Assembly (NCBI GenBank): GCA_946616535.1
Contig: CAMOJA010000018.1
Coordinates: 1 to 24,188, forward strand
DNA from: an uncultured Bacteroidales bacterium
Lineage (GTDB): Bacteria; Bacteroidota; Bacteroidia; Bacteroidales; Paludibacteraceae
Length of the DNA: 24,188 bases
Direction of reading: 5' to 3'
The translations under genes were made by a program, and so were the position numbers. Positions 1-12,942 of this stretch are shown one piece after another. Within the stretch, counting starts at the first letter, position 1. The number at the start of each line of letters is the position of its first letter. The notes below the pieces were generated by a model. The model was not told the origin of the DNA and did no database searches. It saw only the letters and a program-made list of their open reading frames with translations.

Positions 1-601
1 AGGACTGGATGATAGCGGTAATAATGGTTCCTAAAAGCACCAATAACAGCGGGTTGCGTATCGAAGCGAGGAACAGTTTGACGGAGTGCAAAGCCGCAAA
101 CTCATCCATGGCGTTGGACATCATACTGAGGCCGACAAACAACATTCCGAAGCCGGTGAGCACACCTCCTGCCTGCTTCCACGCATCGCTTTTGGTAAAG
201 AGCATAATGAACGCACCGATACCTGCCAAAGCGCTGAAGATGAGGGTGGTGGAGATACTGTTGGAGCCGGACAGACCGAGCGCCACTAACTGGGCGGTAA
301 CTGTCGTACCGATGTTCGCGCCGTAGATGATGGTGGCGGCTTGCGTGAGCGACATGATGCCCACGTTCACAAAACCGATGACCATCACAGTAACAGCACC
401 ACTGCTTTGGATAGCAGCGGTGCCGATAGTGCCGATTCCCACGCCGAGCCACTTATTGTCGCCGGTCTTGGCAAAGAGGCGTTTGAGCCGTTTGGAGGAA
501 GCCGATTCGAGGTTACTGCTCATCATCGTGCAGGCAATCAGAAAGACTCCGATACCTGCCAGGAGCGTTAGAACGGCGGTAATAATAGCTAAGAGATCCA
601 T
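1..601 (-). CDS. Na/Pi cotransporter family protein, N-terminal part (truncated by window edge)
   Basis: Reading the minus strand from the ATG at 601 gives 200 residues open to the window edge. The product is hydrophobic with several membrane segments. It carries the hallmark of the Na-dependent phosphate cotransporter family (NptA/PF02690): a QSS motif followed by a glycine-rich helix (AAIQSSGAVTVMVIGF, residues ~62-77), and a second QSS at the very end of the visible part, as expected of the inverted internal duplication. An NIGTT stretch (residues ~95-99) is also typical. The family imports phosphate with sodium across the inner membrane; bacterial members often carry a C-terminal PhoU-like domain, which would lie outside the window. 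The start is 3 bases after the stop of the PepSY-like gene, so the two are probably co-transcribed. Family call is firm; substrate is inferred. Confidence 0.88.
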   Translation of the reverse strand, partial: MDLLAIITAVLTLLAGIGVFLIACTMMSSNLESASSKRLKRLFAKTGDNKWLGVGIGTIGTAAIQSSGAVTVMVIGFVNVGIMSLTQAATIIYGANIGTTVTAQLVALGLSGSNSISTTLIFSALAGIGAFIMLFTKSDAWKQAGGVLTGFGMLFVGLSMMSNAMDEFAALHSVKLFLASIRNPLLLVLLGTIITAIIQS

Positions 602-604
602 CTT

Positions 605-1039
605 TTAGTCGTCAACGCGGACGAACTCGTATTTGCGGTTGAACTTGAGATCGAGACCGTTATTGAGTTCGGCTTTGTAGCCGCGGTCGTCTTTGCCCCA
701 CTCGGTAATGAAAGCGTTCGGGAAATTGGCTTTGACATAGGCTTGAACGGATTCCGGAATAAGCGCGGAGGGCACTTCCGTCAGTTTGCAATCCACTTTC
801 AGCAACTCGCCCGCCTTGTTGAACTCGATGGTGCGGCCGTCATTGAAGCGAACTTCGTATTCGTCGTCCAGAAGCCCTTTATCCAGCATGACATACGCGA
901 TTTGCGCAGCATCGAAATGGGCAGCCACGATGGCTTTGGCCGGTTCGGGAACTTGGTCATAAGTGATCACTTGGTCCTTAGCACAAGCTGTGAAGGAGCA
1001 TGTCAGCGCCAGCAGCGCTACAAATAAATTCTTCTTCAT
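605..1039 (-). CDS. Exported PepSY-like (BLIP-like) domain protein
   Basis: A 144-residue protein with an N-terminal signal sequence (MKKNLFVALLALTCSFTACA). Cleavage could be by signal peptidase I after ACA, or at Cys19 as a weak lipobox. The rest shows two similar ~60-residue halves, each with a Tyr/Val-rich helix beginning (AKAIVAAHF; VQAYVKANFP) followed by a strand carrying a D/N-G turn (YEVRFNDGRTIEFN; YKAELNNGLDLKFN). This is the pattern of the PepSY-like, 'putative beta-lactamase-inhibitor-like' family (PF11396), common as small periplasmic proteins in Bacteroidales. Exact role is unknown; inhibitor activity is not shown. It is the first gene of a two-gene minus-strand unit with the phosphate cotransporter. 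No TAnnTTTG promoter was found upstream on this strand, although the 155-bp gap is shared with the divergent hypB promoter. Confidence 0.82.
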   Translation of the reverse strand: MKKNLFVALLALTCSFTACAKDQVITYDQVPEPAKAIVAAHFDAAQIAYVMLDKGLLDDEYEVRFNDGRTIEFNKAGELLKVDCKLTEVPSALIPESVQAYVKANFPNAFITEWGKDDRGYKAELNNGLDLKFNRKYEFVRVDD

Positions 1040-1130
1040 AATAGTTCGTTTTTGTAGGTTAAAATGTTTTCAAATAGAATACTACAAAAATCATGCCATA
1101 AATTAATTATACAAAAAAATATGTGCAATC

Positions 1131-1161
1131 TTGCGTATATCAAAAAAAAGTTGTAATTTTG
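1131..1161 (+). promoter_or_regulatory. Bacteroidetes-type promoter of the hypB operon
   Basis: A -33 TTG at 1131-1133 and a -7 box TAATTTTG at 1154-1161 (consensus TAnnTTTG) are separated by 20 nt. Transcription would start a few bases downstream, giving a leader of about 25-30 nt before the hypB ATG at 1195. Confidence 0.8.
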
Positions 1162-1194
1162 CAGTCGATTTCGAAATAAGTAGAAATTTATACC

Positions 1195-1869
1195 ATGGAA
1201 AACGTTAAAATTATCGAGATTAAGAAGAGTGTCTTCGAGAATAACGACTGTGCGGCGGATGAGTTGCGCGGTGAGTTGAAGACCAAGGGTGTGTTTCTGC
1301 TCAATCTGATGTCTTCGCCCGGAAGCGGCAAGACCACAACCCTCATTCAGACCATCAATCGTCTTAAAGACAAAATCCGTATTGCCGTTATGGAAGCGGA
1401 TATCGACAGCGATGTCGATGCGATCAAGATTAAGGAAGCCACCGGCGTGGAGTCCATTCAGTTGCATACCGGCGGCATGTGCCATCTGGATGCGGAGATG
1501 ACGAAACAAGGATTGAACAACGTGTCAATGGAGCAAGCGGACTTAGTCATTCTGGAGAACGTGGGCAATCTCGTGTGCCCTGCGGAGTTTGACACCGGAG
1601 CCGTGAAGAACGCGATGATCCTCTCTGTGCCGGAAGGACATGACAAACCGCTCAAGTATCCGTTGATGTTTTCCATTTGCGATGTGGTGGTAATCAATAA
1701 GATAGATGTACTGCCGTATTTCGATTTCGATATGGAGAAATGCAAGGAGTACATCCATATGCGTAACCCGAAAGCGACCGTCATTCCTATCTGCGCCAAA
1801 ACAGGAGAAGGCGTGGATGTTTTTGCCGAATGGCTCTTGACCGAAGTCAAGAATTGGAAGTCGATATAA
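1195..1869 (+). CDS. hypB: Hydrogenase/nickel-enzyme maturation GTPase HypB
   Basis: A 224-residue SIMIBI-class GTPase that, with HypA, inserts nickel into [NiFe]-hydrogenase (in some species also urease). Visible motifs: P-loop SSPGSGKT (residues 40-47), EADIDSDVDA (switch I region), the metal-binding Cys96-His97 pair in GGMCHLD, Cys128 in NLVCPAEF (third G-domain metal ligand), and the guanine-specificity NKID (168-171). It lacks the N-terminal CXXCGC high-affinity nickel site of E. coli HypB and the His-rich stretch of rhizobial HypB, so it can only use the G-domain metal site. First gene of the operon, behind a clear promoter. Its last codons and TAA lie inside an 8-base tandem repeat. 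No hypC, hypD, hypE or hypF is in the window. Identification is firm; the client enzyme is unknown. Confidence 0.95.
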   Translation: MENVKIIEIKKSVFENNDCAADELRGELKTKGVFLLNLMSSPGSGKTTTLIQTINRLKDKIRIAVMEADIDSDVDAIKIKEATGVESIQLHTGGMCHLDAEMTKQGLNNVSMEQADLVILENVGNLVCPAEFDTGAVKNAMILSVPEGHDKPLKYPLMFSICDVVVINKIDVLPYFDFDMEKCKEYIHMRNPKATVIPICAKTGEGVDVFAEWLLTEVKNWKSI

Positions 1870-1894
1870 CGACATATCGACATAACGATATAAC
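1863..1894. repeat. 8-base tandem repeat over the hypB stop codon
   Basis: Four adjoining 8-base units with consensus GAYATAWC. The hypB TAA (1867-1869) is inside the first unit and the next gene starts 17 bases after the array. The unit is nearly the same as that of the array at 5491-5522 in the same operon. Confidence 0.85.
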
Positions 1895-1910
1895 GAAAAT
1901 AATCTATACT

Positions 1911-4763
1911 ATGCCGCAAATGTCAGACAAGTTTGTCCCAAAACACAAAGGGGACAAGAACCCGAATCCGAAATTATTGAAGTTCGTCCGCCATGTTACG
2001 GACCGTATTCCCGGAAAGATCAAGATGACCACAGACGCCCCGGAGTATTGGGGTCTCGCCTGTATCTTCGAAGATGAGATGGATGCGGTAACCCGTGAGG
2101 CGTCGCTGGATCTGCTGTTAGATATGTTGCCCGGTAATTTCTTTAAGGTTCGCAAGCACCACACGTACGCGCAGTTGCATGAGATGAACACCGAGAAGCA
2201 CTACACACCGGATGACAAGAGTTTTGACGAATTATTAGATAAACTCGCCTATTTCGGCATGCTGGAATACGATTACGGCGATCACTATACCAACGGCCAA
2301 GGACCGGACGAGGGTACGACATTCAACCGCGATGACCGTATCTACTGGGTGCCGATGTTCGTGCCGGGAAGTGCCGAATATACGAACATGAACACCGAAC
2401 TGATGGATCGTCATCCGGAGCTGGCGATGTTCTTCGAGCGAATGACATTCCTGCCCTTGGAGAAGATTACACCGATGGTTCCAATGGGCGGCAGCGGTAT
2501 TGGTATGCACGTCATTCCGGTGGAAAAAGCCATCTCGATGGAAAATCAGAGTGTCGATATCGAGCATATCAGTTACTGGCTTAAGAAATACGAGGGACAT
2601 ATCGGCGTCGGCATCTGCTCTTGTCGATATGGGCGCAAGAAATTAGATGAAGGCTGCGCAGACGATTACCGCGATTGGTGTATCGGTGTGGGCGATATGG
2701 CGGATTATCTGCGTGAGACAGGCCGCGGGCACGACATCACTTACGATGAGGCGATGGCGATTCTCAAGAAAGCCGAAGACCACGGTTTTGTACACCAAGT
2801 AACGAATATCGACGGCGAGGGTAAGATCTTTGCGATTTGTAATTGTAACGTGAAGATATGCAACGCGCTACGCACCTCGCAGTTGTTCAATACACCTAAT
2901 ATGTCTCGTAGCGCGTACGTGGCTGAAGTGGATCCGAAAAACTGCGTGGCGTGCGGCCGGTGTGTGGAGTATTGTCCGGCAGGAGCGGTCAAGTTGGGTC
3001 AGAAACTATGCACCAAGCATGGTCCGCAGACCTACCCGAAACAGGAGTTGCCTGACGCAACCCGATGGGGCGAAGACAAATGGACGGAAGACTACCGCGA
3101 CAAGAACCGGATCAACTGCTACCCGACAGGAACGGCGCCGTGTAAGACCGCATGTCCGGCACATATCGCCGTGCAGGGCTATCTGAAAAAAGCGGCAGAA
3201 GGCAAATACACAGAGGCGTTGGAACTGATCAAACGCGAGAACCCGTTCCCGGCAGTATGCGGACGAATCTGTAACCGCCGTTGTGAGGACGCTTGTACAC
3301 GCGGCACGATTGATCGTGCGGTAGCGATCGACGCCGTGAAGAAATTCATCGCTGAGAAAGACTTGCATGCCGAGACGCGTTTTGTGCCCGAAGTCAATAT
3401 CTGCTCGAACGTCCAAGAGCGTTGGGAGGAGAAGATTGCCATCATCGGCGGCGGACCTGCTGGGCTGAGTTGTGCGTATTATTTAGCGACGATGGGTTAC
3501 AAGCCCACTGTGTTCGAACGCAATGCAGAACCAGGTGGTATGCTACGCTACGGCATCCCGTCGTACAAACTGGACAAGGCGGTTATTGATGCCGAGATAG
3601 ATATCATGCGTGAGATAGGCGTGGAGATAAAGACCGGCGTGGAAGTGGGCAAGGACATCACGATAGCCCGGTTGCGCGAGCAGGGTTACAAAGGATTCTA
3701 CGTAGCTATAGGTTGCCAAGGTGGTCGTCTGCCGGGTATTCCGGGAGAGGATTTGGAGGGCATAATGACCGCGATTGATTTCCTGCATGAGGCAAATTGC
3801 GGCGACAAGAAGATCAGCGGAAAAGTCGTTGTTGTCGGCGGCGGAAACGTAGCTATCGATGCAGCGCGTGTTGCAAAACGCAGCGGCGCAAGCGAAGTGA
3901 CGATGCTGTCGCTGGAGAGTGAAGATATCATGCCGGCTTCGCTTGAAGAACGCATGGAAGCGCGTGAGGATGGCGTGGTAATCAACCCGGGATGGGGACC
4001 AAAAGAAATTAAAAATTCAAAATTAAAAATTAACAATGTCGGTGGCATAACGTTCAAGAAGTGCGTGTCGGTATTTGATGCAGAGCATCGGTTTGCGCCG
4101 AAGTTCGATGAGAACGAGACGATTACGCTGGAGGCGGACTTGGTGATTTTTGCTATTGGTCAGACGGTAGTGCTCAAAGATCTGCTCAAAGATACGAAAG
4201 TGGAGTTCTTCCGCGGCGTATATCCGGTAGCGGACAAACTGACGTACCAGACCGCCGAACCCGACATCTTCGTGGGCGGCGATGTGTTCACCGGTCCTAA
4301 GTTCGCGATTGACGCTATCGCCGCAGGCAAGGAAGCGGCAGAGAGTTTGCATCGCTTCGTGCAGCACGGACACATGACTATCGGTCGCAACCGCCGTGAT
4401 TTCATCGAACTGAATAAGCAGGATATTCTGGTGGAGCAATACGATAACAGCAGCCGGCAAGACCCGGGAGTCATTCCGACGAAAACGAAATTCGAGGAAT
4501 ACCACGGTACGTTGACCGAAGAACAGGTGAAGAAAGAAACTGCCCGCTGCCTCAGTTGCGGTGCATCGGTAGTGGATGAGAACCGCTGTATCGGTTGCGG
4601 TATTTGTACCACCAAGTGCGCGTTCGACGCCATTCACCTGCATCGCGAGCACCCGGAAGCCAGCGTCATGCGCACTTCCGAGAACAAGTTTGATGGCATT
4701 TTGCCGTACATGATCAAAAGAGGCGGAAAGATATTGATTTCGGGGCTAAGCAAGAAAAATTGA
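1911..4763 (+). CDS. Multidomain Fe-S / FAD / NAD(P) oxidoreductase (GltD-like core with extra N- and C-terminal iron-sulfur domains)
   Basis: 950 residues from the ATG at 1911; an upstream in-frame ATG at 1830 would overlap hypB and encode repeat sequence, so it was not chosen. Domains in order: a ~330-residue N-terminal region with a Cys cluster (Cys236, 238, 249, 257; then Cys310, 312, 317 in ICNCNVKIC) resembling iron-sulfur domains of anaerobes; a [4Fe-4S] motif CVACGRCVEYCP (345-356); a GltD/dihydropyrimidine-dehydrogenase-type helical Fe-S domain (Cys411, Cys415, then CGRICNRRCEDAC); an FAD Rossmann motif GGGPAG (513-518); an NAD(P) motif VVGGGNVAIDAA from ~641; the closing FAD motif VGGDVFTGP; and a C-terminal ferredoxin domain (Cys880, 883, then CIGCGICTTKC 893-903). 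It should move electrons between NAD(P)H and an iron-sulfur partner, probably in the cytoplasm. Residues ~698-709 are encoded by a heptamer repeat on a surface loop. Its TGA overlaps the hypA ATG. Partner and true substrate are unknown. Confidence 0.9.
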   Translation: MPQMSDKFVPKHKGDKNPNPKLLKFVRHVTDRIPGKIKMTTDAPEYWGLACIFEDEMDAVTREASLDLLLDMLPGNFFKVRKHHTYAQLHEMNTEKHYTPDDKSFDELLDKLAYFGMLEYDYGDHYTNGQGPDEGTTFNRDDRIYWVPMFVPGSAEYTNMNTELMDRHPELAMFFERMTFLPLEKITPMVPMGGSGIGMHVIPVEKAISMENQSVDIEHISYWLKKYEGHIGVGICSCRYGRKKLDEGCADDYRDWCIGVGDMADYLRETGRGHDITYDEAMAILKKAEDHGFVHQVTNIDGEGKIFAICNCNVKICNALRTSQLFNTPNMSRSAYVAEVDPKNCVACGRCVEYCPAGAVKLGQKLCTKHGPQTYPKQELPDATRWGEDKWTEDYRDKNRINCYPTGTAPCKTACPAHIAVQGYLKKAAEGKYTEALELIKRENPFPAVCGRICNRRCEDACTRGTIDRAVAIDAVKKFIAEKDLHAETRFVPEVNICSNVQERWEEKIAIIGGGPAGLSCAYYLATMGYKPTVFERNAEPGGMLRYGIPSYKLDKAVIDAEIDIMREIGVEIKTGVEVGKDITIARLREQGYKGFYVAIGCQGGRLPGIPGEDLEGIMTAIDFLHEANCGDKKISGKVVVVGGGNVAIDAARVAKRSGASEVTMLSLESEDIMPASLEERMEAREDGVVINPGWGPKEIKNSKLKINNVGGITFKKCVSVFDAEHRFAPKFDENETITLEADLVIFAIGQTVVLKDLLKDTKVEFFRGVYPVADKLTYQTAEPDIFVGGDVFTGPKFAIDAIAAGKEAAESLHRFVQHGHMTIGRNRRDFIELNKQDILVEQYDNSSRQDPGVIPTKTKFEEYHGTLTEEQVKKETARCLSCGASVVDENRCIGCGICTTKCAFDAIHLHREHPEASVMRTSENKFDGILPYMIKRGGKILISGLSKKN
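4004..4031. repeat. 7-base tandem repeat inside the oxidoreductase gene
   Basis: Four units with consensus MRAAATT, clearly more A/T-rich than the surrounding gene. They are read in frame as roughly EIKNSKLKIN, in the loop between the conserved GWGPKEI and TFKKC segments of the GltD-like core. The frame is open across the array. Confidence 0.85.
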
Positions 4764-5110
4764 TGCACGAGTTAGGAATCGTATTCTATATTATAAGAGA
4801 TGTCAAGAAAGCAGCGCAAGAACATGGCGTTGAGCATGTCTCGGCGGTGGTGATGAACATTGGTGAGGTGTCCACCATTGTACCGGAATACCTGACCGAT
4901 TGTTGGCATTGGGCGGCAGATAAAGAAGAGTTGCTGCGGGGTTGCGAATTGAAGATCGAACCGATACAGGCGGTGACGCATTGCGACGGTTGTGGCAAGG
5001 AGTACCCCACAGTGGCGCATGGAAAGATCTGTCCGCATTGCGGCAGCGAGAAGACTTGGCTGCTACAAGGGAACGAAGTGGAGATTAAGGAATTGATAGT
5101 TGATAATTGA
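4763..5110 (+). CDS. hypA: Nickel metallochaperone HypA
   Basis: 115 residues starting MHELGIV. The N-terminal Met-His-Glu is the known nickel-binding end of HypA, so the ATG at 4763 was chosen over the TTG one codon earlier. The C-terminal half holds the structural zinc site with two CxxC motifs (CDGCGKEYP and CPHCGS). HypA passes nickel to the hydrogenase large subunit together with HypB. The ATG overlaps the TGA of the oxidoreductase by one base (TGATG), which suggests translational coupling. The last residues (IVDN) and the stop codon are encoded by a heptamer repeat, so the natural C-terminus may have been altered. Identification is firm. Confidence 0.95.
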   Translation: MHELGIVFYIIRDVKKAAQEHGVEHVSAVVMNIGEVSTIVPEYLTDCWHWAADKEELLRGCELKIEPIQAVTHCDGCGKEYPTVAHGKICPHCGSEKTWLLQGNEVEIKELIVDN

Positions 5111-5129
5111 TAATTGATAATTTATAATT
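5095..5129. repeat. 7-base tandem repeat over the hypA stop codon
   Basis: Five units, consensus GATAATT (first GATAGTT, last TATAATT). The array supplies the final hypA codons and its TGA (5108-5110), and ends 2 bases before the start of the next gene at 5132. Confidence 0.88.
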
Positions 5130-5131
5130 TT

Positions 5132-5482
5132 ATGGCTTGTTTTATTGTACCCTTAGTACAAGCGGTGGCAACAACGGCATACCGCAAACGTATGGAAAAA
5201 ACGCAGGTTGAACCTGCACAAAGTAACTACCATGCGCTCAGCAAGCATCTACCGGCTCTGGAGAAAATGCTCTGGGGCGGTTCATTGATGCTGATAGTGG
5301 ATCATATCCTCAACGGCGAGGTGACATGGATGTACCCGTTCTTTACCGCCTTGGAAACCGAAGGCGGCGGTTTGGTGATGCTCAAAGAGATGCTGACCGT
5401 GGGTGTACCGATGTCGATAATCGTCACCGTTGCATGGGCTATATGGGCTTATACCAAGGAGCGCAAAACTGTTAACGCATAA
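5132..5482 (+). CDS. Small membrane protein of unknown function in the hypAB operon
   Basis: 116 residues beginning MACFIVPLVQA at 5132; an earlier in-frame start at 5114 lies within the repeat and was rejected. Hydrophobic segments lie near the N-terminus (CFIVPLVQAVATTA), in the middle (WGGSLMLIVDHILNG, then TWMYPFF) and at the C-terminus (VGVPMSIIVTVAWAIWAY), giving 2-4 membrane passes. The second segment contains a buried Asp-His pair (VDH) that could matter for ion or cofactor binding, which is only a guess. No family was recognised. It follows hypA by 21 bases and precedes a larger membrane protein, so the two may form a membrane complex linked to the upstream oxidoreductase. Confidence 0.75.
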   Translation: MACFIVPLVQAVATTAYRKRMEKTQVEPAQSNYHALSKHLPALEKMLWGGSLMLIVDHILNGEVTWMYPFFTALETEGGGLVMLKEMLTVGVPMSIIVTVAWAIWAYTKERKTVNA

Positions 5483-5490
5483 AGAAACCC

Positions 5491-5522
5491 GACATATCGA
5501 CATATCGTCATATCGATAAATC
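5491..5522. repeat. 8-base tandem repeat between the two membrane-protein genes
   Basis: Four units, two of them exact GACATATC, the others variants (consensus GWYAWATC). It lies in the 79-bp gap between 5482 and 5562. No promoter consensus was seen in that gap. Overlapping ATCGAT palindromes give it some hairpin potential. Confidence 0.85.
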
Positions 5523-5561
5523 GATTAAAATCAATCATTTAATCTTAAAAATTACTAATCT

Positions 5562-6665
5562 ATGTTTTTTGAAGTGTATGGGGCAAATGCCCTTGCTCAA
5601 TGGGGCATGCTGTTGGTTGTCCTCGTGGGCTTAATCCTTTTCAATGAGTTTGCTCGCCGTACGAAACTCGGCGGTGCTATCACGTTCTTCGCTATTCCGC
5701 TGGCACTGACGATTTATTTCATTGCCATCGCAGTGGGTGCCCGTATGGGTGCTGAGTGGGCGCTGACGAACCAGACTCATCTGTACATGAACGGTTGGTT
5801 CCACTATGCTAAGCTGTATGCTGCCTTGACCGGATGTATTGGTTTTATGATGATCAAGTACGAATGGGGAATTGGCGCAAAACGCTGGTTCAAACCATTC
5901 CCGTTCATCATCGTAGCTATTAACATTCTGATTGCCGTGGCTTCGGATTTCGAGTCCGCTATCATGGGATGGAACAAATGGTGGCTGTCAAGCGAAGGTG
6001 TATGGTTGTATGGCGGTTGGCATAACGTATTCAATGGTCTTGCCGGTCTGTTCAACATCTTCTGTATGACCGCATGGTGGAATGTGTATCCGTCCAAGGA
6101 CAAGAAAGATATGATTTGGGCGGACATGACTTGGGTCTATATCCTCGTTTATGACATCTGGAACTTCGCGTACACGTACAACTGCCTGCCGACACACAGC
6201 TGGTATTGCGGTATTGCGTTGTTGCTCGCTCCGACAGTAGCTGCTCTCCTTTGGAACCGTGGCGGTTGGATTCAGAACCGTGCTAACACTCTGGCTATAT
6301 GGTGTATGTTTGCACAGGTATTCCCGCTCTTCCAAGAGGTCTTCAAAGATGGTTTTCACAAGTTCAGCTGGGTTGTTCTGCCGACGCAGTACGTCAACGG
6401 CTTTGACACCATCACCGCTCTCTATGCAGAGGCTGGCGGCGAGGCTGCAGCAACCGGTACTACTATTGAGGCTGTGGGGGCTACAGCTGCTAATCCGACA
6501 GCTATGCTGGTCATCTCCGCTTTGGCGCTCATTACGAACATCGTTGCTTTCGGTTACATTATGTACCAAGCCAAGGTACGCCGCATCAACCCGTATAAGG
6601 AGGATGTCTTCGTTAATCAGAAGTACTACAAAGACGCGATGGCTCGCGCCGTGGTCAACAGCTAA
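5562..6665 (+). CDS. Polytopic membrane protein of unknown function (possibly DUF5692-like)
   Basis: 367 residues with about eight to nine membrane segments, for example residues ~13-32, ~40-61, ~82-100, ~110-128 and a last one near ~320-340 before a basic cytoplasmic tail (KVRRINPYKED). It is unusually rich in Trp, Tyr and Asn/His within or near the membrane (WLYGGWHNVFNG, MTWVYILVYDIWNFAYTYN), suggesting a binding site in the bilayer. A short Ala/Thr/Gly-rich loop lies around residue 290-310. It recalls an uncharacterised family listed as DUF5692, but from memory only. Last gene of the operon; a strong terminator follows about 40 bases later. Function unknown; a membrane partner, transporter or quinone-interacting subunit for the oxidoreductase are all possible. 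Confidence 0.8.
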   Translation: MFFEVYGANALAQWGMLLVVLVGLILFNEFARRTKLGGAITFFAIPLALTIYFIAIAVGARMGAEWALTNQTHLYMNGWFHYAKLYAALTGCIGFMMIKYEWGIGAKRWFKPFPFIIVAINILIAVASDFESAIMGWNKWWLSSEGVWLYGGWHNVFNGLAGLFNIFCMTAWWNVYPSKDKKDMIWADMTWVYILVYDIWNFAYTYNCLPTHSWYCGIALLLAPTVAALLWNRGGWIQNRANTLAIWCMFAQVFPLFQEVFKDGFHKFSWVVLPTQYVNGFDTITALYAEAGGEAAATGTTIEAVGATAANPTAMLVISALALITNIVAFGYIMYQAKVRRINPYKEDVFVNQKYYKDAMARAVVNS

Positions 6666-6703
6666 TAGACGGAAAGACACCGTAAAGTAGCTGAAAGCGA
6701 AAG

Positions 6704-6733
6704 AAAAATCGTCCTTCTGGGCGATTTTTTTTT
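6704..6733 (+). terminator. Rho-independent terminator ending the hypB operon
   Basis: An 11-bp stem (6704-6714 with 6719-6729, one T-G pair) closes a 4-base TTCT loop, and the 3' arm runs into a stretch of nine T (6725-6733). It is placed 39 bases after the last gene and just before the next promoter. Confidence 0.9.
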
Positions 6734-6741
6734 GTCTTTAT

Positions 6742-6772
6742 TTGCATATCTCGAAAAAAAGTAGTAATTTTG
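6742..6772 (+). promoter_or_regulatory. Bacteroidetes-type promoter of the flavodoxin/efflux gene block
   Basis: TTG at 6742-6744, 20-nt spacer, TAATTTTG at 6765-6772, then about 24 bases to the flavodoxin ATG at 6797. The -7 box is identical to that of the hypB promoter. Confidence 0.82.
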
Positions 6773-6796
6773 CACTCGTAAATAAAAAATACGCAA

Positions 6797-7285
6797 ATGA
6801 AAAAACTATTTTTGATTTTAGCGGCGGTGATGATGACCGTAAGCGTAATGGAAGCAAAAACTATTGTTGTTTATTTCTCGGCCACAGGAACCACCAAAGC
6901 GGCGGCAGAGCAGATTGCCAAAGAGCAGAAAGCGGATATTTGGGAGATCGTGCCGGCGGAGAAATACACGGCAGCGGACTTGGACTGGCGCAACAAACAA
7001 TCGCGTTCGTCGATTGAGATGGCAGACCCGGAAGCTCGTCCGGCGATCAAACAATGCACCAACATCCAGCCGTACGACGTCATTTATGTGGGTTATCCCA
7101 TCTGGTGGGGTGTCTGCCCGAGAATCATCAACTCGTGGATCGACAACAACCTCCCGCAGCTGGAGGGTAAGCAACTCATTCCGTTCGCTACCTCCGGCAG
7201 TAGTACCATCGGGCAATCAGTGGAGTACCTGCGCAAGACCTATCCGAGCTTGAAATGGGAGAACGGAAAACTGATGAATAAATAA
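6797..7285 (+). CDS. Exported flavodoxin-like protein
   Basis: 162 residues: an N-terminal signal-like segment (MKKLFLILAAVMMTVSVMEA) followed by a flavodoxin fold. The FMN phosphate loop is visible as YFSATGTTKAAAEQ (residues ~27-40) and the second flavin loop as GYPIWWGVCPRIINSW (~99-114), where Trp and Pro would stack on the isoalloxazine ring. A third loop is TSGSSTIGQS. This matches the Flavodoxin_4 group (PF12682), whose Bacteroidales members are often exported. Flavodoxins usually work in the cytoplasm, so a periplasmic or lipid-free exported form implies an electron donor at the membrane or in the periplasm. First gene behind its promoter, 21 bases ahead of the efflux adaptor. Redox partner unknown. 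Confidence 0.87.
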   Translation: MKKLFLILAAVMMTVSVMEAKTIVVYFSATGTTKAAAEQIAKEQKADIWEIVPAEKYTAADLDWRNKQSRSSIEMADPEARPAIKQCTNIQPYDVIYVGYPIWWGVCPRIINSWIDNNLPQLEGKQLIPFATSGSSTIGQSVEYLRKTYPSLKWENGKLMNK

Positions 7286-8403: not shown

Positions 8404-11400
8404 ATGGCAAAGGGAAATATCTTCGTAGATCGGAAAGTGATGGCGGTGTGTATCTCGCTGCTGATCGCTTTGGTGGGTTTTATATGCCTCAAGACGCTGC
8501 CTATCGAGCAGTATCCGGATATCGCACCACCGACGGTGATGATCTCAACGTCCTATTCCGGCGCGGACGCCAACACGGTGATGAAATCCGTGGTGATGCC
8601 TATTGAGGAGGCAGTGAACGGTGTGGAGAACATGGCGTACATGACTTCGGAGGCTTCGGCTACCGGTGATGTCAATATCAACGTCTATTTCAATCAAGGT
8701 ACGGACGCGGACATGGCAGCGGTTAATGTGCAGAACCGCGTGTCGGCAGCGTTGGGATTGCTTCCGCAAGAGGTGACTCGCGTGGGTGTAAAGGTAGAGA
8801 AGAGGCAGAATAACATCCTTCAGATCTCTGCACTTGTCAGTCGTGACGGGAAGTTCGACATGGATTTCATCGCCAACTATATCGACATCAACGTCAAGCC
8901 TCGTCTCTTGCGAGTAACGGGTGTCGGTGCTGTGCAGCTGTTAGGTAACACGTACTCCTTGCGTATCTGGATGAAGCCGGATGTGATGGCGCAGTATGGT
9001 TTGGAGCCGAATGATATCTTCGCCGCCATCGGGAACCAGAATATGGTGGCTGCTACCGGTTCGTTAGGCGAGCAAAGCGGCAACACGTATCAGTATAATT
9101 TGGAGTACAAAGGTCGTCTGCAGTCCATCGAGGAGTTTGAGTCGATCGTGCTCCGTACGGATCATGGCAACGTGCTCCATCTGCGCGACGTAGCGGATGT
9201 GGAGTTAGGCGCATTGAACTACAGCTTCTCTTCACGCGTGGACGGCAAGCCCGGTGTAGCATTCATGATCAACCAGGCGCCGGGAGCCAATGCGACCCAG
9301 GTCAATGCGGCGATCAATGACCTGTATGACCAGATCAAAAAGACTATGCCGGCAGGCTTGGAGTTCACCACGCTCCAGACTTCCGATGACTTCCTCTATG
9401 CCGCTATCCATAACGTCGTAGAGACCCTGATCATTGCGATCATTCTGGTCATCCTGGTGGTGTATTTCTTCCTCCAGAACTTCAAAGCAACCCTCATTCC
9501 GTCGATCTCCATCATCGTATCGCTGTTAGGTACGTTCGCAGTGGTGAAAGTGGCGGGATTCTCATTAAATATCTTAACGCTCTTTGCCCTCGTGTTAGCC
9601 ATCGGAACGGTCGTCGATGATGCGATCGTCGTCGTCGAGGCGGTGATGGCGAAGATGGAGAGCGGCTACACATCGGCGTACAAGGCTACGAAAGATGCCA
9701 TGAGCGAAGTGACGGTGGCGGTTATCAGTTGTACGCTGGTCTTCATGGCGGTGTTCATCCCCGTGACCTTCATGCCCGGCACGAGCGGTACGTTCTTCAC
9801 GCAGTTCGGTATCACTATCGCCAGTTCCGTGGGACTCAGCTGTCTCTCGGCGCTGACCCTTTGTCCTGCGCTGACCGCCATCCTTTTCCGGCCTAAGAAA
9901 GAAGAGCCTAACGGAAAGAAAAGCTTCGCGCAGTATGTAAAAGAAGCATATGACGCCGGCTATAACGCCATCTTGGGCAAGTATAAGAATGGTGTTGCCA
10001 AGTTCTTGCAGAAACCCCGCCGTGCGTGGCTTTGGCTCATTGCTGCAGCGATAGCGATGGTGTTCGCCATGCGTGCGTTGCCTTCGGGTCTTGTGCCCCA
10101 GGAGGACCAAGGTGTGATCATGGTTGATGTAACGGCTCCGGCCGGTTCACCGCTGGTGGAGACCGATAAGATCATGGCGCAGGTAGAGGAACATGTGCTG
10201 CGGCTTGAGGAGGTGGAGAGTTATGCCAAGATCTCCGGTTTCGGTCTGATCTCCGGTACGGGTGTCAGCTACGGTACGCTCGTCGTGCGCCTCAAACCTT
10301 GGGACCAGCGCAAAGGTATCGAGCACTATATCGACTATGTGATGGCGAAACTGTACCTCTCTTGCGAGGATATCAAGGACGCACAAGTCATTCCGTTCCA
10401 GATGCCGCAGATTCCGGGGTACGGTAACAGTAACGCGATCGATCTACAGATGGAAGACCTGCAAGGAGGCGATATGTCGAAGTTCAACGAGGTGGTGAAT
10501 AACTTCCTTGCCGAGCTCCAGAAATACCCCGAGATACAGATGGCGATGTCGCTCTACAGTGAGTCCTTCCCCAAATACAAGGTCGATGTCAACGCTACGC
10601 AGTGTGACCGCGCAGGCATCTCGCCGGACGTAGTCTTGAACACTCTCGGTGCGTACTGCGGTAGTGCGTATATCAGTAACTTCAACCAGTACGGAAAGGT
10701 CTATCGTGTCATGGCCGGCGCAGCACCTGAGTACCGTCTGGATCCTTCGTCGCTGAATAATATCTTCGTGAAGATAGGGAGCGAGATGGCGCCCATCTCG
10801 CAGTTCGTGACGCTCACGCCGGCAGTCGGTTCGGCTACCCAGAAGCGTTTCAACCTCTATCAGTCGATCGCTTGTTCCGTGCAACCGAGTGCCGGTTATA
10901 GCGAGGGTAACGTGCAGAAAGTGATTGAGGAGGTAGCGAAGACACACCTGCCGGCGGGCTATACGTTCGAGTACGGAGGTATGAGTCGTGAGTTGCAGGC
11001 AAACAGCAAATCCAACCTCACCGTCCTTATTTACCTTGTTTGTATCCTGTTGATTTATATGATTCTCGCGTCGCTTTACGAGTCATTCTTCATCCCGCTG
11101 GCAGTCCTGCTGTCCGTACCTTTCGGTCTGATGGGCTCGTTCGCGCTGTCATGGCTCTGCGGCCAGGAGAATAACATCTACCTCCAGACCGGTGTGATCA
11201 TGTTGATCGGTCTGCTGGCGAAGACGGCTATTCTTATCACCGAGTTCGCGGTCGAGAAACGCAAACAGGGTATGCCTATCGTAGAGGCGGCTTTGGGAGC
11301 TTGTGAGGATCGTCTGCGTCCTATTCTGATGACCGTCGTGACGATGATTGCCGGAATGATTCCGCTGATTATCGAAGGTGGTGCCGGAGCAAACGGAAAC

Positions 11401-12942
11401 CGTGCACTCGCTATCGGTGTGACGGGTGGTATGGCGGTCGGAACGCTCGCCCTCGTCTTCGTCGTGCCTGCCTTCTATATCATCTTCCAGACACTCCACG
11501 AGCGCTTCCAAGGAGAGCCCGAGCTTATTGAAGAAGAATCTTCGGAATCTCGAAATACCGATATACCGAAATCTCGAAAACCGAATACGGCGATGATGGT
11601 AGGTGTCTTGATCATCAGCACAATGACCCTCTCTTCCTGCGGTATCTTCAAGAAATACGAGCCGGCGCAGAAACCCGAGCAGGACAGTCTTATCACCGCT
11701 GTCAGCGAGACGAACTGGCAGACCTATATCACCGATCCGATCTTACAGGGATATATCCGCAAAGCGCTGGAGAACAATGTCGATTACCGTTCGCGCAAGC
11801 TCGCTGTGTTAGAAGCAGATGCACGCCTTCGTGCCGCTAAGTTAGGCTTCCTGCCGACCCTGGCTATCTCGCCTGCCAACGTGGGCGTCTCGGGCACTTA
11901 TACACCCGGCACAGGTATGTCCGGCGCGACGCTGAGTTACCAGGTGCCGCTATCCCTCAACTGGGGAGGAGAAGGCTTCGGTACGATCACGAATCGCAAA
12001 CGTCAGGCGCAGGTGCTTCGCGACCAAGCGGAGGATAACCGTGCAGCGGCTCATGCAAACCTCGTTGCCACCATCGCCCGCACTTATACGCAACTGCAGT
12101 TGCTGGACTACCAGGGAGTTATCCTCGATAGTACGGAGATTATCTGGCAGCAAGTGCTGGAGATCCAACGCGTCCTGGTCAAGAACGGACAGGCGTACTC
12201 GCCTTCTATCGGCCAGATGGAAGCTTCGCTAATTAACGTGCAAATCCAACGCAAGCAACTCTTGGAGCAGATCCACTCGCTGGAATTATCTATGTGTCTG
12301 CTGCTGAACGTTGAGCCGCAAACGATAGCCCGTTCGCCGTGGACGAGTTATACCTTCGATCCCTGGACGCTGGAGTCCGTGCCGGCTGCGCAACTCAGCA
12401 ACCGTGCCGATGTCCGCGCGGCAGAGCGGAATGTAGCTGCGGCGTTCTATCAGACGAACATGGCAAAAGCCGCTTTTTGTCCGGCGCTGTCTCTCTCGGG
12501 ACTCATCGGTTGGACCAATAACGGCGGCATCGTCGTGAACCCCGGTCAGTTGCTGATGAACGCAGTACTCGGCCTCTCGCAACCGATCTTTGCCGGCGGC
12601 AAACTCAAAGCGGACCTCAAGATCGCCAAACTCGAGCAAGAGGAAGCCGCTAACCGTTACGTGGAGACCATGCTGAGAGCCGGAAGCGAAGTCAACGACG
12701 CCATCTTCCGTTGCAAGAATGCGCAGGAACAAGACACCCTCTACCAACGTCTTCTGACCACCCAGAGCGAGGCATATGAAGGCACGTATGAGTTGATGAA
12801 AACCGGTAGAGCCAACTACTTGGAGGTGCTTACGGCGCAGGAGAACTACCTCAAGGCGCAGCTCTCTGATGTCACCAACCGCTATAACGGACTCATCAGC
12901 CTCATCGACCTTTATGTGGCACTCGGCGGAGGAACGAAATAA
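8404..12942 (+). CDS. Fused RND (HAE-1 type) efflux pump and TolC/OprM-type outer-membrane factor
   Basis: One open frame of 1512 codons. Residues 1 to ~1035 are a complete AcrB/MexB-type proton-driven transporter: TM1, two large periplasmic loops, and the proton-relay residues Asp405-Asp406 in GTVVDDAIVVVE and Lys940 in GLLAKTAILITEFA. Residues ~1080-1512 are a complete outer-membrane factor, with the paired helical-hairpin pattern (KALENNVDYR, then ARTYTQLQLLDYQ; second half RADVRAAERNVAAAFYQTNMAKAAF and EVLTAQENYLKAQLSDVTNRYNG). Between them, residues ~1047-1058 come from an octamer repeat, and 1064-1079 (MMVGVLIISTMTLSSC) look like a lipoprotein signal with lipobox LSSC at Cys1079. So it may be a true fusion, a polyprotein cut by signal peptidase II, or two products through internal initiation at the ATG pair 11593/11596. 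Together with the adaptor it forms an export pump. Confidence 0.93.
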   Translation: MAKGNIFVDRKVMAVCISLLIALVGFICLKTLPIEQYPDIAPPTVMISTSYSGADANTVMKSVVMPIEEAVNGVENMAYMTSEASATGDVNINVYFNQGTDADMAAVNVQNRVSAALGLLPQEVTRVGVKVEKRQNNILQISALVSRDGKFDMDFIANYIDINVKPRLLRVTGVGAVQLLGNTYSLRIWMKPDVMAQYGLEPNDIFAAIGNQNMVAATGSLGEQSGNTYQYNLEYKGRLQSIEEFESIVLRTDHGNVLHLRDVADVELGALNYSFSSRVDGKPGVAFMINQAPGANATQVNAAINDLYDQIKKTMPAGLEFTTLQTSDDFLYAAIHNVVETLIIAIILVILVVYFFLQNFKATLIPSISIIVSLLGTFAVVKVAGFSLNILTLFALVLAIGTVVDDAIVVVEAVMAKMESGYTSAYKATKDAMSEVTVAVISCTLVFMAVFIPVTFMPGTSGTFFTQFGITIASSVGLSCLSALTLCPALTAILFRPKKEEPNGKKSFAQYVKEAYDAGYNAILGKYKNGVAKFLQKPRRAWLWLIAAAIAMVFAMRALPSGLVPQEDQGVIMVDVTAPAGSPLVETDKIMAQVEEHVLRLEEVESYAKISGFGLISGTGVSYGTLVVRLKPWDQRKGIEHYIDYVMAKLYLSCEDIKDAQVIPFQMPQIPGYGNSNAIDLQMEDLQGGDMSKFNEVVNNFLAELQKYPEIQMAMSLYSESFPKYKVDVNATQCDRAGISPDVVLNTLGAYCGSAYISNFNQYGKVYRVMAGAAPEYRLDPSSLNNIFVKIGSEMAPISQFVTLTPAVGSATQKRFNLYQSIACSVQPSAGYSEGNVQKVIEEVAKTHLPAGYTFEYGGMSRELQANSKSNLTVLIYLVCILLIYMILASLYESFFIPLAVLLSVPFGLMGSFALSWLCGQENNIYLQTGVIMLIGLLAKTAILITEFAVEKRKQGMPIVEAALGACEDRLRPILMTVVTMIAGMIPLIIEGGAGANGNRALAIGVTGGMAVGTLALVFVVPAFYIIFQTLHERFQGEPELIEEESSESRNTDIPKSRKPNTAMMVGVLIISTMTLSSCGIFKKYEPAQKPEQDSLITAVSETNWQTYITDPILQGYIRKALENNVDYRSRKLAVLEADARLRAAKLGFLPTLAISPANVGVSGTYTPGTGMSGATLSYQVPLSLNWGGEGFGTITNRKRQAQVLRDQAEDNRAAAHANLVATIARTYTQLQLLDYQGVILDSTEIIWQQVLEIQRVLVKNGQAYSPSIGQMEASLINVQIQRKQLLEQIHSLELSMCLLLNVEPQTIARSPWTSYTFDPWTLESVPAAQLSNRADVRAAERNVAAAFYQTNMAKAAFCPALSLSGLIGWTNNGGIVVNPGQLLMNAVLGLSQPIFAGGKLKADLKIAKLEQEEAANRYVETMLRAGSEVNDAIFRCKNAQEQDTLYQRLLTTQSEAYEGTYELMKTGRANYLEVLTAQENYLKAQLSDVTNRYNGLISLIDLYVALGGGTK
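11544..11575. repeat. 8-base tandem repeat at the RND-TolC joint
   Basis: Four units, consensus GRWATMYC, with a fifth degenerate copy to 11583. Read in frame as a Ser/Arg/Lys/Pro-rich linker (SRNTDIPKSRKPN) that directly precedes the internal lipoprotein-type signal sequence and gives it a positive n-region. 32 bases is not a multiple of three. Confidence 0.85.

Follow-up and report, generated by a model that had tools for sequence, protein, structure and literature searches.

The window analyzed here, a stretch of 24,188 nucleotides from an uncultured Bacteroidales bacterium of the Paludibacteraceae (GenBank assembly GCA_946616535.1, contig CAMOJA010000018.1), carries a plus-strand operon of five genes: hypB, a gene for a large iron–sulfur (Fe-S) flavin adenine dinucleotide (FAD) oxidoreductase, hypA, and two genes for membrane proteins (Table 1). 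The order and positions are those given by a first-pass annotation made from the sequence, and the protein families are as expected from it. As compared with its published description, the oxidoreductase appears to have the features of the IsrA family ("clade 9"), named for a putative isoprene reductase. Identifiers beginning with L and G denote loci and genomes, respectively.

Table 1. Features of the operon and their positions in the window
Feature	Positions	Strand	Basis
Bacteroidetes-type promoter match, TTG-N20-TAnnTTTG	1131–1161	+	pattern scan
hypB, Ni-binding GTPase, G-domain type	1195–1869	+	TIGR00073; conserved metal ligands
isrA-like Fe-S/FAD oxidoreductase, 950 residues	1911–4763	+	PF14691, PF07992, Fer4; start from homologs
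Codons of N-terminal Cys cluster, candidate metal (Ni/Fe-S) site	2616–2861	+	invariance, CxC spacing
hypA, nickel metallochaperone, start overlapping (TGATG)	4763–5110	+	PF01155
Small membrane protein, 116 residues, no known family	5132–5482	+	homologs, alignment
DUF5692 (PF18948) polytopic membrane protein, 367 residues	5562–6665	+	PF18948
Intrinsic terminator	6700–6733	+	stem, T run, fold z

The mechanically called open reading frame (ORF) of the oxidoreductase begins at 1830, inside hypB; since aligned homologs begin with MP.MS, we place the start at the ATG at 1911, 41 bases after hypB, which removes the overlap and yields the 950-residue protein first annotated between hypB and hypA. The reported TGATG coupling of the oxidoreductase to hypA is exact, the stop codon TGA occupying 4761–4763 and the hypA ATG 4763–4765. 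Domains above cut-off are PF14691 (dihydropyrimidine dehydrogenase (DPD) domain II), PF07992 (FAD/NAD(P)), and N-terminal Fer4 stretches; a C-terminal Fer4_9 match at residues 919–945 of the longer ORF scored 25.7, below the cut-off of 27, and the six C-terminal cysteines are invariant. This is the architecture of IsrA and clade 9: a unique N-terminus, Fer4, PF14691, PF07992, and a C-terminal 4Fe-4S domain in about 900 residues. Across 82 oxidoreductase sequences (80 loci described below, the window, and the Bacillota locus L124), C236, C238, C249, C257, C310, C312, and C317 are invariant in all 82, the Bacillota homolog included. The pairs C236/C238 and C310/C312 reproduce, from C238 to C310, the 72-residue spacing between the CxC motifs Cys180/182 and Cys254/256 of IsrA (Kronen 2023, PMC10134865, cited throughout from part of its text). 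By its sequence, the N-terminal cysteine cluster is a candidate metal (Ni/Fe-S) site. Profile positions ~398–813 align with solved chains of NfnA, the glutamate synthase small chain, and dihydropyrimidine dehydrogenase, and it is here that the protein resembles NfnB/GltD-type flavoproteins, whereas the N-terminal part with the cysteine cluster differs from them and, except for a 4Fe-4S stretch at 335–379, matched nothing among the 50 structures listed.

Both chaperones carry their expected ligands. HypB scored 234.6 bits against TIGR00073 (cut-off 121.2) and, with its CH...C metal ligands, is of type 1 (G-domain only); C96, H97, and C128 are kept in 77 of 77 homologs. HypA scored 106.6 bits against PF01155 and has the MHE N-terminus and two CxxC zinc motifs, with H2, E3, C74, C77, C90, and C93 kept in all 79 homologs. 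Against the NCBIfam equivalog TIGR00100 it reached 72 bits, scored with one extra N-terminal residue, which is below the cut-off of 88.1 and marks it as a divergent member.

The first-pass annotation described two unrecognized membrane proteins. One of them belongs to a named family, DUF5692 (PF18948 match at 2.6e-129), although the function of that family is not known; the other, starting at the ATG at 5132, is indeed without a family, with no match in Pfam, NCBIfam, or PHROG and 1295 database homologs at E values up to 0.01. The predicted model of the DUF5692 protein (predicted local distance difference test score (pLDDT) 85) contains many long helices. No sequence match was found in the PDB at E values up to 1, and a fold comparison that took in seven-transmembrane folds (class C receptors, rhodopsins) returned no clear relative, nor is the protein clearly related to any known respiratory subunit. 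Diverged DUF5692-like membrane genes also adjoin TetR regulators with an HI_0893-type C-terminal domain (L029, 9567–10974; L030, 10259–11720), as read from a domain scan of the L029 gene pair and the L030 regulator.

A scan of genome contigs gave 361 stretches encoding a relative, the best 80 of which were analyzed as loci. In 60 of the 80, all five genes follow one another in this order on a single strand, with every gap below 600 bp in 58 of these (tblastn), and this repetition is more than chance. Homologs of hypB were matched in 77 loci (two without room, one absent, L063) and of hypA in 79 (L114 without room), so that the adjoining HypA and HypB that mark clade 9 neighborhoods are present. 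The small membrane protein was matched in 68 loci (seven absent with room, five without room) and DUF5692 in 70 (three and seven, respectively). Beyond the Bacteroidales, where neighborhoods of Bacillota were read in two plasmid records, the Subdoligranulum record OY725877.1 (L124, plasmid by record) has hypB, isrA, hypA, and DUF5692 in the same order; its IsrA is 64% identical, and no small membrane protein was seen there. On a Latilactobacillus plasmid, DUF5692 occurs by itself, with unrelated genes around it. Two loci show spaced genes: in L117 (11850–19742), isrA and hypA lie 7.9 kb apart, with ORFs of 886, 269, and 136 residues among others in between, probably an insertion splitting the operon, and in L086, 2.2 kb precede DUF5692. 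Carriage as phage cargo was rejected, none of the 42 stretches matched in a scan of viral contigs encoding a relative.

The customary clients of HypA and HypB were searched for in 50 genomes, those of the 50 top-ranked among the 80 loci, and each search was positive in some of its 14 control genomes. HypD, the [NiFe] large subunit, and urease alpha were each found in 0 of the 50 operon-bearing genomes, in keeping with the first-pass view that these chaperones occur here without a hydrogenase; the outcome that would have made this an ordinary split maturation locus, a standard hydrogenase elsewhere and an unconserved neighborhood, is not what these genomes show, and the genes of the operon keep together. 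Service to a hydrogenase or urease was accordingly rejected for the searched genomes. HypA was above cut-off in all 50, with no second gene above it: G524, G541, and G558 have a second match under cut-off, and two adjacent over-cut-off pieces in G557 were taken as one broken gene. Because hypA adjoins isrA in all of these loci (L114, with none, and L117, with a distant copy, are not among the 50), the single HypA should be that of the operon. With HypD, the [NiFe] large subunit, and urease alpha all missing from the searched genomes, a split hydrogenase locus is excluded there, and the likely client of HypA and HypB is the IsrA-like enzyme. A second set comprised 17 genomes, selected either by a DUF5692 match or as genus mates. 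Four of them are HypA-positive: G001 and G404, the two with full-length IsrA, which have neither HypD nor a [NiFe] subunit, and G249 and G240, in which HypD and a [NiFe] subunit are present and full-length IsrA is not.

Among known systems, the isr operon of Acetobacterium wieringae, which is isoprene-induced in a strain without hypCDEF and [NiFe] genes (PMC10134865), shares with the window an oxidoreductase of ~900–950 residues with Fer4, DPD domain II, and FAD/NAD(P) domains, the CxC pair 72 residues apart, HypA and HypB in the operon, and the lack of [NiFe] machinery. In contrast, it has two hypA genes and an ENOG4105DQ9 ferredoxin, whereas the window operon has one hypA and no ferredoxin gene, adds DUF5692 and the small membrane protein, places hypB first, and belongs to a Bacteroidales host; some of the Bacteroidales loci are also adjoined by glpABC. 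The single hypA and missing ferredoxin gene mean that this is not the isr operon proper, though it may work like one. It looks like a member of the wider set of 988 IsrA homologs in the same paper, whose neighbors are HypA (0.73), HypB (0.56), and DUF5692 (0.40), that is, the same gene set. The earlier suggestion that HypA and HypB serve an unrecognized nickel protein fits, but the oxidoreductase family had already been proposed as the client, with the Cys6 site of IsrA as a possible nickel site (PMC10134865). With the pairing of HypA, HypB, and DUF5692 and nickel delivery to Cys6 in print, the core idea is not new. The words glycerol, rumen, and membrane protein are absent from the main text of that paper, and the part cited did not yield a mention of the small membrane protein, of a glp link, or of Bacteroidales genomes devoid of other HypAB clients. 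What we add is the five-gene order in the Bacteroidales loci and a keyword count of hosts (below); judging from the literature searched, three further points are new: the finding that the Bacteroidales genomes searched have no other known HypAB client, the small membrane protein, and the glpABC neighborhood.

Turning to that neighborhood, glpA, glpB, and glpC, encoding an anaerobic glycerol-3-phosphate dehydrogenase, adjoin the operon in 8 of the 80 loci, as identified by equivalog scores in L060 (GlpA 762, GlpB 320, GlpC 589 bits) and by tblastn in the other seven. Six sets lie downstream on the same strand, 85–466 bp from DUF5692 (L060, L064, L071, L076, L079, L085), and the other two (L093, L123) are divergently oriented upstream sets, 98 and 126 bp away from the hypB match; glpT, glpF, or glpK lies beyond glpABC in all eight. 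L064 fails the upstream flank rule, and under one rule adjacency stands at 7 of 51 loci. On a quickly computed IsrA tree of 82 rows, 8 rows were labeled glp and 28 set aside; the 46 rows labeled as lacking glp were 44 loci whose flanks reach at least 3 kb and 4.5 kb, together with the window and L124, which were assigned by hand and in which a glp search found nothing. The three-state label needs at least four changes on this tree and presence alone three, so the arrangement was gained or lost more than once, although the glp loci cluster in two parts of the tree and are thus not eight independent events. GlpA is above cut-off in 21 of the 50 genomes and in pieces in two more (G544, G545), and 7 of these 23 have glp adjoining the operon. 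Given one glp copy per ~2.2 Mb, chance would not be expected to place a neighbor within 0.5 kb; our estimate is about 0.01 of 23, with genomes taken as independent, which they are not.

We propose that this operon is probably a form taken by the IsrA (clade 9) system in Bacteroidales, encoding a nickel-dependent reductase of C=C bonds that acts as an electron sink. HypB and HypA would deliver nickel to the cysteine-rich N-terminal site of the IsrA-like enzyme. Electrons would be received at the FAD/NAD(P)H domain, or supplied by a low-potential carrier, and relayed along the [4Fe-4S] chain; some hosts may draw them from glycerol-3-phosphate via the neighboring GlpABC. IsrA itself was read by Kronen as NADH-linked (PMC10134865). 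A hydrophobic substrate, probably a conjugated one, would have a C=C bond reduced at the N-terminal site, and DUF5692 and the small membrane protein would be membrane partners, likely binding or presenting this substrate or linking the enzyme to the quinone pool. A precedent is provided by A. wieringae strains Y and N, which have a putative diene reductase cluster of this kind and biohydrogenate isoprene and 1,3-butadiene (PMC12509576).

Several points weigh against this proposal. Nickel, substrate, electron route, and the role of the membrane proteins are all inferred, and the likeness to IsrA rests on architecture, CxC spacing, and neighbors, with IsrA itself (VUZ27132.1) outside the alignment. 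The structure model of the oxidoreductase is unusable (pLDDT 49), so the geometry of the cysteine cluster is that of Kronen's model. Other Acetobacterium with 47–49% homologs do not reduce isoprene (PMC10134865). DUF5692 occurs without matches to IsrA and HypA in genomes G278, G199, and G318 and is therefore no obligate subunit. The glpABC neighborhood is confined to eight loci; GlpA had no match in 25 of the 50 genomes and a weak partial one in G553 and G560, and the closest relatives of the window, the nearest one included, are among the genomes without a GlpA match. Finally, the completeness of the 50 genomes searched for HypD, [NiFe] subunit, urease alpha, and HypA is not stated.

Four alternatives were weighed. 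The operon could encode a membrane respiratory module in which electrons from NADH leave the flavoprotein for quinones or an ion pump, with DUF5692 and the small membrane protein as the route. The presence of FAD/NAD(P)H and several [4Fe-4S] domains, two membrane proteins in the same operon, and the eight adjoining sets of glpABC, a quinone-linked dehydrogenase, are consistent with this, and the first-pass annotation had likewise pictured a flavoprotein feeding a membrane complex; that picture was not borne out, as DUF5692 bears no clear relation to respiratory subunits and is also found without the oxidoreductase, and we consider such a module unlikely. Somewhat less probable is that the nickel carried by HypA and HypB has DUF5692 or the small membrane protein as its recipient, with the flavoprotein merely supplying electrons to that membrane nickel protein. 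Numerous His, Asp, Glu, and Cys positions of DUF5692 are indeed invariant (40 sequences), and it lies within the operon in most loci, but its occurrence without HypA, in the three genomes named above, disfavors it as the client, as do its solitary plasmid copy and the three loci with room that have HypA, HypB, and IsrA and no DUF5692 match; the small protein is missing in seven loci with room and was not seen in L124. We give still less credence to the delivery of zinc or another metal, or to a role of HypA and HypB solely as general chaperones of Fe-S cluster assembly: this would accord with the sub-threshold TIGR00100 score of HypA, and nickel in IsrA is not reported as measured in the cited part of PMC10134865, but the nickel ligands (HypA His2-Glu3, HypB CH...C) are invariant. 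A split maturation locus, in which HypA and HypB serve a [NiFe]-hydrogenase or urease elsewhere beside incidental neighbors, is highly improbable: although both proteins fall in hydrogenase-classed families and G249 and G240, with their DUF5692 or DUF5692-like matches, carry hydrogenase genes and HypA, the conserved gene order, the three null searches, and the absence of HypD and [NiFe] subunit from G001 and G404 refute it for the searched genomes, where incompleteness of metagenome-assembled genomes (MAGs) could hide a few clients but hardly 50 of 50.

The transcriptional boundaries bear out the first-pass reading of one promoter and one terminator in part. The terminator is strong, with a 15-pair stem and a T run (6695–6740, −19.2 kcal/mol, fold z −5.1), although terminator-like sites in the 600–7200 scan are near chance in number (8 versus 6.7). 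For the promoter, the pattern in Table 1, which we take to be the Bacteroidetes-type consensus, has five matches on the plus strand of the window, 1131–1161 among them (chance expectation not computed), and a sigma-70 scan of 600–7200 gave 9 matches versus 8.2 by chance, that is, no excess. Short repeated cgacatatcga-like units occupy two gaps of the operon (1860–1910 and 5480–5545).

Genes flanking the operon in the window are rarely kept beside it, many of the 80 loci having short flanks. Just 3' of the operon lies a plus-strand flavodoxin (PF12682, 6797–7285) with a signal-peptide-like N-terminus and its own Bacteroidetes-type promoter match at 6742; a conserved role for it was rejected, as it adjoins the operon only in L044 (98%), with a weak opposite-strand match in L106. 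Membrane-fusion and resistance-nodulation-division (RND) flank genes recur in L044 alone, PepSY in L044–L046, and Na/Pi in L045, L046, and L052, with weak matches in L072 and L104. An ORF of 1512 residues (8404–12942, plus strand) joins an RND permease (PF00873, residues 5–1028) to an outer-membrane efflux protein (PF02321, best stretch 1324–1508), with a lipoprotein-like stretch between them, and is an apparent RND–outer membrane factor fusion; L022 has a single ORF of 1516 residues with the same start. A DUF1846 gene occurs at varying distances from the operon in eight loci (L095, L118, L123, L116, L108, L069, L106, L120), identified by PF08903 and NF010184 in L095 and by clustering in the other seven.

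Regarding the substrate and habitat, the host is close to rumen Bacteroidales: the best locus of the contig scan (L044, 98%) is isolate RUG225, and several homologs are named Paludibacteraceae. By title keyword, 64 of the 80 loci are ruminant, counting RUG and RGIG names, which we take to be such, and 16 are of untold source; this excess is weak evidence and biased by query and sampling, since the query is rumen-like, only the best 80 of 361 stretches were kept, and rumen MAGs are abundant. Our leading guess for the substrate, a tentative one, is conjugated fatty acids, perhaps those of dietary fats, and in rumen Bacteroidales the operon may conceivably, though doubtfully, encode an enzyme that depends on nickel and biohydrogenates conjugated unsaturated fatty acids. 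In that case, lipolysis would free glycerol and unsaturated acids, GlpABC would supply electrons in some hosts, the IsrA-like enzyme with nickel delivered by HypA and HypB would saturate a conjugated bond, and DUF5692 would handle the membrane-dissolved acid. For clade 9, an oleate hydratase gene lies by the corresponding genes of A. woodii and A. fimetarium, and terpenes have been suggested as substrates (PMC10134865). The conjugated linoleic acid (CLA) reductase of Butyrivibrio, likened here by proposed reaction type alone, reduces conjugated linolenic acid and t11,c13-CLA and not t11,c15-18:2 (PMC2654759, in part); a fatty acid oxidoreductase based on Hughes 1982 is depicted, and presumed in most butyrivibrio genomes, in the part of PMC4478896 cited. 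No paper tying this gene set to rumen lipids was found among the open-licence papers listed. A lipase beside glpK in L060, L064, and L076 was not used as evidence of lipolysis, that of L060 being a generic alpha/beta hydrolase with esterase-type matches.

If the proposal holds, HypA and HypB would gain a third kind of client after hydrogenase and urease, and the nickel biology of anaerobes would be larger. Ruminal biohydrogenation determines how much trans and saturated fat milk and meat contain, and it is a competitor of methanogens for electrons; should the substrate prove to be conjugated fatty acids, the operon would provide a genetic basis for this process outside Butyrivibrio, and a marker gene for it.

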